Source: Homoserinimonas sp. OAct 916
GTDB taxonomy: Bacteria > Actinomycetota > Actinomycetes > Actinomycetales > Microbacteriaceae
Direction of reading: 5' to 3'
DNA: 64,000 bases
Assembly (NCBI RefSeq): GCF_003260275.1
Contig: NZ_QJHB01000001.1
Location: forward strand, 62,001-126,000
Positions 16,249-64,000 of the stretch are shown in pieces (the stretch's first letter is position 1; every line of letters begins with the position of its first letter). A program made the translations under genes and the position numbers. Below the pieces are notes generated by a model. It did no database searches and was not told the DNA's origin. It was given only the letters and a program-made list of their open reading frames with translations.

Positions 16249-16392
16249 ACCTCTCGGCGGGCGAAGGGGTTTCGGAGGGCTAAGGGTTATCGGCAGGCCA
16301 AGGAGTCTCGGCGGGCTATGGCGTCTCGGCAGGCTATGGGGTCTCGGCAGGCTATGGGGTCTCGGCAGGCTATGGGGTCTCGGCAGGCACGG
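16249..16392. repeat. Eight-copy 18-bp tandem repeat overlapping a stop codon
   Basis: Eight consecutive 18-bp units (plus-strand consensus GGGTCTCGGCAGGCTATG). The units nearest the gene are almost identical, while those further left diverge steadily. The reductase stop (TAG at 16370-16372) lies inside a unit, and in-frame TAG triplets recur every 18 bp downstream. The last residues of the protein (PAETP) are repeat-encoded. Confidence 0.96.
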
Positions 16393-41561: not shown

Positions 41562-41625
41562 TTTCAGGGGCTGAGGGTTTCAGGGGCTGAGTGTTTCAGA
41601 GGCTGAGGGTTTCAGGGGCTGATTC
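41562..41625. repeat. 16-bp tandem repeat over the lysA stop codon
   Basis: Four 16-bp units (plus-strand consensus TTTCAGGGGCTGAGgG). The lysA stop (41612-41614) lies in the rightmost unit, and the array fills most of the lysA-hom gap. The period is not a multiple of three, in line with its non-coding position. Confidence 0.94.
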
Positions 41626-46657: not shown

Positions 46658-46741
46658 TAGTAATAGAGCCCGGTAGAAACTAGAGCACGATAGACGCTAG
46701 AGCACGTTAGAAGCTAGAGCACGTTAGAAGCTGGAGCACGG
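46658..46741. repeat. 17-bp tandem repeat after the lipoprotein gene
   Basis: Four clear 17-bp units from 46674 (consensus TAGAagCTAGAGCACGt) plus a decayed one before. It begins 31 bp after the stop codon. Confidence 0.93.
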
Positions 46742-46775
46742 TCGTAAGAGACGGCGCCTGCGGCGGTGCCGGATC

Positions 46776-46858
46776 ATCAGCGCCCGAGCTATCAGCACCG
46801 AGCATCAGCACCGAGCATCACTACTGGAGCATCACCACGGGTACATCACCCCGGGTAC
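46776..46858. repeat. 13-15-bp tandem repeat up to the pdxH stop codon
   Basis: Six units of 15, 13, 13, 14, 14 and 14 bp that begin ATCA(G/C)CaCcGaG. The next ATCA contains the pdxH stop. Together with the 17-bp array it fills nearly all of the 232-bp gap between the convergent genes. Confidence 0.88.
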
Positions 46859-46859
46859 A

Positions 46860-47714
46860 TCAATGCCAGAGTGAGGCGTGCTCCCAGCTGGAGGCAGTGC
46901 GTGAGTACCTGACCCGCACCTGTTCCCGCGCGGCAGTCGTCTGCCAGAACTCAATCTCCTCCGGCTGCAGTCGATACGCCGTCCAGGCTCGCGGTACGAA
47001 CAATGGGTTGCCGGCCACGAACTCCTGCGCAGCCGCAAGCTGGCGCCGAACCGCGTCTGCGCCCGGCAGCGGCTTGCTCTGCTCGCCAGTGAGGGCCGCG
47101 GCACGCGCCTGGGGGCTGCGGGCGCGGAAGTCTGCCTCACTCACCTCGCGGGGTCCCTCGAACACCTGGCCGCGCACCCTGACCTGCCTGGCCTGCTCAC
47201 GCCAGTAAAGCGTGAGAGCGGCGGCCGGGTTCTCTACCAGTTGCTCACCCTTGGGGCCGTCACTCATCGAAGCGAACCAGAACCCATCAGTCCTCCCAGC
47301 GCCCGAATCCGAACCCGGGGCACGATCTCGCTGGTCGGAAGTGACGTCTTTCAGCAACAGGGTGCGGGCATCCGGACGACCATCCCCGTCAACGGTGGAC
47401 AGGACCATCGCATGTGGTTGGGAAACCCCAGAGCTGATCGCTCCGTCCAACCAGGTCGCCATCAGATCGTAGGGGTTCTTCGGCACGGTGGCCGCGTCGA
47501 AATCGCCCGGCACGATCGGAAACGCGTCCAGTGAGCGCAACCGGAGCCGCAGTGACTGCTGCCCCGACACAGGTTCACCCGACACAGGTTCATCCGACAC
47601 AGGTTCATCCGACACAGATTCGTCCGAGGCGAACTCGTGTGATCCGGGAGCGCGCGACGCAGAGTCGGGGGGTTGCGAATGCGGATACTGGCGCGGACGC
47701 GAATGCTCGGTCAT
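46860..47714 (-). CDS. pdxH: Pyridoxamine/pyridoxine 5'-phosphate oxidase
   Basis: A 284-residue FMN enzyme that makes pyridoxal 5'-phosphate, the cofactor of several enzymes in this window. Core motifs: MVLSTVDGDGRPDARTLLLKD, GFWFASMSDGPKGEQL, NPAAALTLYW, RQVRVRGQVF and WTAYRLQPEEIEFWQ. The first 60 residues are a Ser/Pro/Glu-rich tail absent from most homologues, and part of it is built by a 15-bp tandem repeat. Confidence 0.93.
   Translation of the reverse strand: MTEHSRPRQYPHSQPPDSASRAPGSHEFASDESVSDEPVSDEPVSGEPVSGQQSLRLRLRSLDAFPIVPGDFDAATVPKNPYDLMATWLDGAISSGVSQPHAMVLSTVDGDGRPDARTLLLKDVTSDQRDRAPGSDSGAGRTDGFWFASMSDGPKGEQLVENPAAALTLYWREQARQVRVRGQVFEGPREVSEADFRARSPQARAAALTGEQSKPLPGADAVRRQLAAAQEFVAGNPLFVPRAWTAYRLQPEEIEFWQTTAAREQVRVRYSRTASSWEHASLWH
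47566..47640. repeat. In-frame 15-bp repeat in the pdxH N-terminus
   Basis: Four good 15-bp units (plus-strand GACACAGGTTCAtCC) and a fifth decayed one, encoding SDESV, SDEPV, SDEPV and SGEPV. Two units are identical. Confidence 0.94.
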
Positions 47715-58684: not shown

Positions 58685-58808
58685 AACCCCAAACTAGTCT
58701 TCTCCCGCGCCGCTGGCCAGCATCCACCACCTCGAACCCGGCTGCCGGGGGCGAAAACCGGTCGTGCACACCCACACCGTTCCGGAGAGTTCATGCGAGA
58801 CTGGGGTC

Positions 58809-59645
58809 GTGTCCAAGTCGCAATTCATCATCGTTCCCGAATGGCAGGGGTCGAGTTCGTCACGCGCCATGCGCCTGGTCGATGGGGCCAACGCCATCTT
58901 GGGCGACCTGCCCCAGTCCGCCACCCGCGTGGTCGAAATTCCCACAGGTGCGGGCGATATGGTCGAGACCGGAATCGCCCGGTTCACGTCGTTGCAGTCG
59001 GTGCGGCGGGCGCAGGCGCGGGTGCTGGCCGAGACGCCAGAACCGGCGATCACCATCGGGGGCGACTGCGGGGTTGAATTGGCGGCCGTGGAAGCGGCCC
59101 ATGCCCGGCACCTGGGGTCGATGGCGCTCGTCTGGCTGGACGCCCATGCCGATCTGAACACGCCACAGACGTCGCCGTCAGGAACGTTCCACGGGATGGT
59201 TCTGCGTGCGTTGATGGGTGAAGCGGCACCCGGGTTGATCCCGGAGTCGGGCCACGAACTTCTCGCCGAAATGGTGGTGCTTGCCGGGGTACGGGCGCTG
59301 GATGACGCCGAGGACGAGTTCATCGCTTCGGCCGGTATCACGGTCTTGACTCCGGCACAGTTGACTGACCCACAATCTCTGGTGCGCGCGATCGAGAACA
59401 CGGGCGCGACATCCGTCTACCTTCACGTCGACCTTGATGTGCTGGATCCGAGCGATATCGCCGGGGTGACCTACCCGGAACCGTTCGGGGTGAGCGCAAG
59501 CGACCTGACCGCACTGATCCGCGCGGTGCGTGGGCGCTTTCCCCTGGTCGGCGCAGGAATCACCGAATTCGCCCCGGCCAGCCCCAACCAGGCCGCAGAC
59601 GACCTGCCGACCATCCTGCGCGTGATCGGAGCCCTCACCTCGTAA
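58809..59645 (+). CDS. Arginase/ureohydrolase-family protein
   Basis: A 278-residue protein of the arginase fold. Two of three metal motifs are standard: DAHADLN and HVDLDVLDP. The first, usually GGDHS, is GGDCG, so a histidine metal ligand is a cysteine. It may act on an amidine or guanidine compound, or may have lost the second metal. The GTG at 58809 (VSKSQFII) is preferred; an upstream frame start exists. The stop codon begins a 15-bp repeat array. Confidence 0.82.
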   Translation: MSKSQFIIVPEWQGSSSSRAMRLVDGANAILGDLPQSATRVVEIPTGAGDMVETGIARFTSLQSVRRAQARVLAETPEPAITIGGDCGVELAAVEAAHARHLGSMALVWLDAHADLNTPQTSPSGTFHGMVLRALMGEAAPGLIPESGHELLAEMVVLAGVRALDDAEDEFIASAGITVLTPAQLTDPQSLVRAIENTGATSVYLHVDLDVLDPSDIAGVTYPEPFGVSASDLTALIRAVRGRFPLVGAGITEFAPASPNQAADDLPTILRVIGALTS

Positions 59646-59800
59646 CCGAAGTACGCACAACCATGGTTTCCGCAACCACAGCTCTCGAAACCACAGCTTT
59701 CTAAACCACAGTGTTCGGTAGAACGGTGCTCGGCAGAACAGTGTTTCGCAGAACAGTGTTTCGCAGAAAAGGGCTTGGCAGTACAGTGCTCAGCAGAACC
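59644..59800. repeat. Ten-unit decaying 15-bp array filling an intergenic region
   Basis: Nine clear 15-bp units from 59659 to 59793, a decayed one at 59644 that starts in the TAA stop, and a partial one after. The unit drifts gradually from AACCACAGCTcTCgA on the left to CAGAACAGTGTTTCG on the right, where two neighbours are identical. Almost the whole gap between the arginase-family gene and the oxidoreductase is repeat. Confidence 0.95.
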
Positions 59801-59814
59801 GGAAGGAACCTGAA

Positions 59815-61278
59815 ATGGTGACCGAAGACTACGACCTGATTGTGATCGGCGCGGGTGCAGTGGGTGAGAATGTGGCAGACCGGGCAACGCGGGGTGGGCT
59901 TCGAACCGTCGTCATCGAGCGCGACCTGGTCGGCGGAGAATGCAGCTATTGGGCCTGCATGCCGTCCAAGGCACTGCTGAGAAGCCCTGCGGCTCTGCGC
60001 GCAGCCACGGCGGTCGGCGGGGCCAGGGAAGCCATCACGGGCGATCTGGACGTCAACGCGTTGCTGGACCGGCGGGACACATTCACAAGCCACTGGAAGG
60101 ACCATGGGCAGGTCGACTGGCTGGAATCCGCCGGAATCGACCTGATCCGCGGCCGCGGGAGCATCCACGGTGCGCGAAAAGTGATCGTCACCACTGAAGA
60201 CGAAGGCCAATTCACGCTCACCGCGAAGCACGCCGTGGCGCTCTGCACCGGTAGCACCCCGCTCATCGCGCCCATCCCGGGGATCGCGTCGATGGCGCCC
60301 TGGACCAGCCGCGACCTGACCGCTGTCACGAACATCCCGGAGAGCATCATCATCGTCGGCGGCGGCGTCGTCGCCTGTGAGATGGCCACTGTGTTCGCCC
60401 AGTTGGGCAGTGTCGTCACCGTGCTCTCACGCAGCCAGTTGCTCGATTCCGAGGAACCGTTCGCCGGCGAGCTCGTGGCCGAATCCCTGATCGGAATGGG
60501 CGTGGACCTTCGCCTGAAGACGCACATTTCGAAATTGAGCCGCGCGGCGGATGGAACCGTGCACGCCGTGCTTGAAAACGGCGCACAGATCTTCGCGGAA
60601 CAGATCGCCGTCGCGACCGGCCGCAAGCCACGAACAGACGACGTAGGGCTCGACTCAGTGGGGCTCGTCCCCGGCGACTGGCTGCACGTTGACGACACCA
60701 TGCTCGTCCGCGACCCTCACACCGGCGGCTCAGAGTTCGACGGCGAGAGCGATTGGCTCTACGCGATCGGCGACGTGAACAATCGTGCCCCGCTCACCCA
60801 CCAGGGCAAATATCAGGCGAGGGCCGCCGGCGACGTGATCGTGGCCCGTGCCGCCGGGTTGTCTGTGACCGCCGAGCCGTGGTCTCAGTACGCCGCAACC
60901 GCCGATCATCAGGCGGTACCGCAGGCGATCTTCACCGAACCAGAAGTCGCATCAGTGGGCCTGACCGCGGCCGCGGCGAAGAAGGCGGGCTACGAGATCC
61001 GCGTCGTCGACTACGAGATCGGTCACGTGGCAGGGGCCGCACTGCATGCAGACAACTATCGGGGAACCGCCCGCATCGTGGTCGATGAGAGTCGTCGCGT
61101 GCTGCTCGGCGCCACGTTTGTGGGGCCCGAAGTCGCAGAGTTGTTGCACGCCGCCACGATCGCCGTGGTCGCCGAGGTACCCATCGAGCGCCTCTGGCAC
61201 GCGGTTCCGTCCTATCCGACCATCAGTGAGGTCTGGCTCCGATTGCTCGAAGCGTATGGCCGGCCGTCAGACTGGTGA
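59815..61278 (+). CDS. FAD-dependent disulfide oxidoreductase-family protein
   Basis: A 487-residue flavoprotein with the layout of lipoamide dehydrogenase and mercuric reductase. FAD loop VIGAGAVGENVADRATRGG, redox region GGECSYWACMPSKALL, NAD loop IIVGGGVVACEMATVFAQLG, FAD motif LYAIGDVN and the C-terminal dimer domain. The usual redox pair CxxxxC is kept, but its surroundings differ from the common TCLNVGC. The usual HPHPTLSE base region reads HAVPSYPTISE. Substrate unknown. Confidence 0.88.
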   Translation: MVTEDYDLIVIGAGAVGENVADRATRGGLRTVVIERDLVGGECSYWACMPSKALLRSPAALRAATAVGGAREAITGDLDVNALLDRRDTFTSHWKDHGQVDWLESAGIDLIRGRGSIHGARKVIVTTEDEGQFTLTAKHAVALCTGSTPLIAPIPGIASMAPWTSRDLTAVTNIPESIIIVGGGVVACEMATVFAQLGSVVTVLSRSQLLDSEEPFAGELVAESLIGMGVDLRLKTHISKLSRAADGTVHAVLENGAQIFAEQIAVATGRKPRTDDVGLDSVGLVPGDWLHVDDTMLVRDPHTGGSEFDGESDWLYAIGDVNNRAPLTHQGKYQARAAGDVIVARAAGLSVTAEPWSQYAATADHQAVPQAIFTEPEVASVGLTAAAAKKAGYEIRVVDYEIGHVAGAALHADNYRGTARIVVDESRRVLLGATFVGPEVAELLHAATIAVVAEVPIERLWHAVPSYPTISEVWLRLLEAYGRPSDW

Positions 61279-61786: not shown

Positions 61787-61842
61787 GCTGGGCTGAGCTG
61801 AGCTGAGCTGAGCTGAGCTGGGCTGAGCTGGGCTGAGCTGGG
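61787..61842. repeat. 5-bp (GAGCT/GGGCT) tandem repeat after the SIP gene
   Basis: About eleven 5-bp units, alternating GAGCT and GGGCT towards the right, ending five bases from the SIP stop codon. Confidence 0.93.
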
Positions 61843-61846
61843 CAAG

Positions 61847-63890: not shown

Positions 63891-64000
63891 CAGGCAGGAG
63901 TCAAACAGGCAGTCAACCAGGCAGTCAACCAGGCAGTCAACCAGGCAGTCAACCAGGCAGTCAATCAGGCAGGAGTCAACCAGGGAGCGACCAGTCGATC
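63891..64000. repeat. 12/15-bp tandem repeat at the window edge
   Basis: Units of CAGGCAGTCAAC: a 15-bp unit (63891), five 12-bp units (63906-63965; four identical), then another 15-bp unit and decayed copies to the end. The 15-bp forms carry an extra GAG. It lies upstream of the amidase and may continue beyond the window. Confidence 0.94.

Follow-up and report, generated by a model that had tools for sequence, protein, structure and literature searches.

The spacer between an arginase-family gene and an oxidoreductase gene of Homoserinimonas sp. OAct 916 raises the question of how intergenic DNA comes to consist almost entirely of one short repeated unit. The spacer is 169 bp long (59646-59814 of the window, the stretch of 64,000 nucleotides analysed here). 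An earlier note described it as an intergenic region filled by a drifting 15-bp array, and as DNA that grew in place. Our analysis leads to a model in which the spacer is very probably a degenerate minisatellite, built by 15-bp tandem duplications from local sequence and subsequently eroded.

Structure and decay of the 15-bp array

The gene order arginase, oxidoreductase, small protein is widely kept across Microbacteriaceae, and the closest relatives of the arginase-family protein are those of Herbiconiux and other members of the family. The locus comprises the following features:

58764..59645, + strand: arginase-family gene (PF00491; Pfam E=6.5e-35), upstream of the spacer; the gene caller chose an alternative start at 58869
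59636..59650, + strand: possible unit 0, overlapping the arginase TAA stop, with a suggestive in-phase 9/15 match to the block A consensus
59651..59710, + strand: array block A, units 1-4, 15 bp each; consensus GTTCTCGCAACCACA
59711..59800, + strand: array block B, units 5-10, 15 bp each; consensus GTGTTCGGCAGAACA
59801..59814, + strand: ribosome-site stretch GGAAGGAACCTGAA, which leads up to the oxidoreductase start codon; it matches none of the units and is not part of the array
59815..61278, + strand: pyridine nucleotide-disulphide oxidoreductase gene (PF07992/PF02852; Pfam E=2.9e-42), downstream of the spacer

The drifting array is confirmed. Ten 15-bp units run from 59651 to 59800 in register and without indels, taking up nearly the whole spacer, and the right edge of the array ends ahead of the ribosome site GGAAGGA. 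At a lag of 15, 104/154 positions compared across the spacer are identical (0.675), against a maximum of 0.446 among 2000 shuffles at any lag of 5-59. Pairwise alignment of the units, the check proposed in the earlier note, bears out its claim that neighbours are more alike than distant copies, with a mean identity of 0.73, 0.63, 0.61, 0.53, 0.47, 0.40, 0.38 and 0.33 at 1 to 8 units apart (Spearman rho -0.69, permutation p=0.0002). The claim gains a refinement in that the decay is mainly a single step at the boundary between blocks A and B, identity being 0.66 within block A, 0.74 within block B and 0.43 between them. Block B alone has little gradient (rho -0.13) and does not require simple stepwise growth, and the two-block pattern is as compatible with amplification of a founder that had diverged as with growth in steps. 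At the left edge, a match as good as the 9/15 of candidate unit 0 occurs at ~0.4% of window positions, which is suggestive of an array that extends into, or was seeded by, the 3' end of the arginase gene. The array thus has the make-up of a minisatellite, with head-to-tail units inside the range of about 10-60 bp, located outside genes, and imperfect copies of which neighbours are the more alike.

The unit length of 15 is divisible by 3 and an antisense frame is open through the array, as would be expected if it were a remnant of, or present, coding sequence for five-residue repeats. Against such an origin, the coding score of the spacer is negative in all six frames (genes score +0.27 per codon), and substitutions among the units fall evenly over codon phases (12/12/13); together these largely refute coding repeats. 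In addition, intergenic arrays of this genome with 16-bp (n=17) and 17-bp (n=19) units are about as common as those with 15-bp units (n=26), and we consider a coding array highly improbable. An RNA element or terminator is likewise rejected, as an Rfam search of the spacer returned no RNA family, a simple scan found neither promoter nor terminator, and the predicted RNA fold is no better than that of shuffles.

A regulatory element, with tandem protein-binding sites controlling the oxidoreductase gene, could draw on the near-palindrome GAACA-G-TGTTC at the unit joints of block B (GAACAGTGTTC across the joints) and on an excess of the words CAGTG and CTGAGC in array units. That excess is modest: CAGTG is present in 18/97 intergenic array units and in 6/47 coding 15-bp units (1.5 expected), and CTGAGC in 10 array units against 1.5 expected. 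As the palindrome decays, no compensating changes appear, and neither block A nor the orthologous spacers contain it, while arrays elsewhere in the genome have unrelated units and avoid divergent, promoter-bearing spacers. A regulatory origin is therefore improbable. These scans gave no sign of a function of the array itself.

Orthologous spacers in Microbacteriaceae

Growth of the spacer at this site was assessed against 22 Microbacteriaceae relatives in which the arginase and oxidoreductase genes are direct neighbours. Their spacers range from 2 to 196 bp (median 46, n=22) and are mostly without repeats, and 20/22 are shorter than 169 bp. The earlier note had held that orthologous spacers of equal length but free of repeats would refute growth. 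Spacers of this kind occur in two Subtercola, at 191 and 196 bp as called and without a comparable array, the longer perhaps about 121 bp if an upstream ATG is the start; the refuting case named in the note thus occurs in these two relatives. Two closely related Herbiconiux differ at this site. The spacer of Herbiconiux gentiana measures 137 bp and is occupied by an array unlike the present one (periods 9, 27 and 36), and that of Herbiconiux sp. VKM Ac-1786 measures 53 bp and contains a 12-bp duplication. In this other genus, then, the same spacer has grown independently by tandem duplication. At the orthologous site the array is thus missing or different in relatives, as is typical of minisatellites; the cases without it include the two Subtercola spacers that are long yet free of such repeats. 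The ancestral spacer length is not firmly reconstructible because the window's genome sits on a long, poorly supported branch of the two-protein tree. The proposal that the DNA grew here is nevertheless the best reading, supported by the decay of similarity with distance, the predominance of shorter orthologous spacers and the 53 versus 137 bp of the Herbiconiux pair.

Two further observations come from relatives. A Subtercola MAG has an array of its own (17 bp x 6.4) just 3' of the arginase gene, at L054:10911-11018, with roughly 900 bp more from this array to the oxidoreductase gene. In three others (L035, L028 and L097), TAGTCTGC(G) stands immediately 5' of the oxidoreductase start codon and resembles the -10 box of a leaderless transcript.

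Arrays and unit lengths across the genome

A sample of 1.42 Mb, taken as stretches of the 3.64-Mb genome, contains 126 intergenic arrays, whose units are mutually unrelated; the exceptions are two pairs, one of which is adjacent. This bears on the alternative that a member of a dispersed or mobile repeat family inserted in the spacer and has since decayed to the present array. The many tandem arrays of the same genome might be taken to favour such a family. Yet the spacer has no second genomic copy, and the same unit does not recur elsewhere in the genome; the idea is largely refuted and, in our judgement, has very little chance of being correct. Neither is array density unusual, as 0.86 arrays per intergenic kb lies within the family's 0.29-1.69. 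The fall of similarity with distance between units recurs at other loci of the genome, where rho is negative for 17 of the 18 well-populated arrays.

Arrays are unevenly distributed over spacer types, with 1.53 per kb in convergent, 0.82 in co-directional and 0.34 in divergent spacers. Their scarcity in divergent and abundance in convergent spacers is expected if arrays are tolerated only where promoters are left undisturbed; purifying selection acting on near-neutral insertions would produce just such an orientation bias.

The arrays do have a preferred unit length. In a comparison based on a home-made gene caller and on a mixed sample of relatives, mostly of higher G+C than this genome, intergenic units of 14-17 bp account for 73/126 arrays (58%) here and 45/165 (27%) in the relatives (p=2e-7). 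Period 15 is similarly enriched in arrays called coding (47/115 here versus 52/415 in relatives, p=2e-10); some of these lie at the ends of genes, where the gene caller may have extended a gene over a spacer array. An independent analysis, in which exact 11-base matches were counted by lag, gives a peak at 15-16 and another rise at 30-32. Near-perfect arrays and arrays with about two copies already show the unit-length peak, which therefore seems to reflect the length added by each duplication.

Hairpin-driven expansion is rejected as a cause, since array units show no greater tendency to fold than shuffled ones (mean z +0.19). Loss of NucS mismatch repair or of Ku end joining is rejected too, both being present as in most relatives. 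A more tentative proposal, which we regard as possible but doubtful, is that the lineage has a DNA-copying or repair trait generating short tandem duplications with a step of ~15-16 bp (roughly 1.5 helical turns), with little dependence on sequence and no distinction between genes and spacers, such that spacers would be slowly built with a molecular ruler.

Proposed origin and relation to known systems

We propose that the array began with the tandem duplication of some 15 bp lying between the two genes, a stretch that may have taken in the arginase stop codon. Slipped-strand or unequal copying would then have added further units of 15 bp. Among the diverged variants, at least block B would have been amplified later, with point mutations eroding the units afterwards. 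The array may have been tolerated because of its position between stop codon and ribosome site. The same process would act genome-wide, with local sequence as the source of every array and 14-17 bp as the favoured step. Slippage is our favoured copying mechanism, and on sequence evidence alone slippage, unequal recombination and nick-based duplication are indistinguishable. We read the arrays of this genome as near-neutral duplications of slippage type, made in steps of a size particular to the lineage.

Bacterial spacers with tandem repeats, like satellites of unique sequence, are already well documented (PMC3320496, PMC6749651). Taken alone, this locus is a degenerate minisatellite of an ordinary sort. 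In Yersinia pestis, 7/8 typing spacers are reported to contain tandem repeats (PMC3320496), and these intergenic minisatellites, the VNTR loci of MLVA typing, are likewise short-unit tandem arrays in spacers. The present array differs from them in its strongly diverged units and in a step narrowly confined to 14-17 bp genome-wide. A further likeness is to the unique-sequence satellites of prokaryotes, which also arise on the spot; about 40% of bacterial satellites are unique-sequence arrays of this kind in one survey (PMC6749651). The same survey derives Burkholderia repeats of 12, 14 and 16 nt from microsatellites of 6-8 nt. Here, by contrast, 71/73 arrays with 14-17 bp units lack a half-period inside the unit, and an origin from a 7-8 bp microsatellite is rejected. 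Our search of open papers turned up no account of a comparable 15-bp step across a genome and, on preferred unit length in bacteria, general surveys only. What could matter is the 14-17 bp peak, which is common to spacers and genes and less sharp in relatives. Through this peak the size of the duplication step can be read from a natural bacterial genome, and the genome-scale bias merits a proper survey, while the arrays themselves show new spacer DNA arising from local sequence.

Other spacers of the window hold arrays as well. Three different adjoining arrays (units of 17, 13 and 14 bp) at 46664-46862 occupy about two thirds of a convergent spacer of ~230 bp. Further spacer arrays with unrelated units lie at 16252-16388 (18 bp), 41562-41622 (16 bp), 61787-61843 (10 bp) and 63895-63972 (12 bp).
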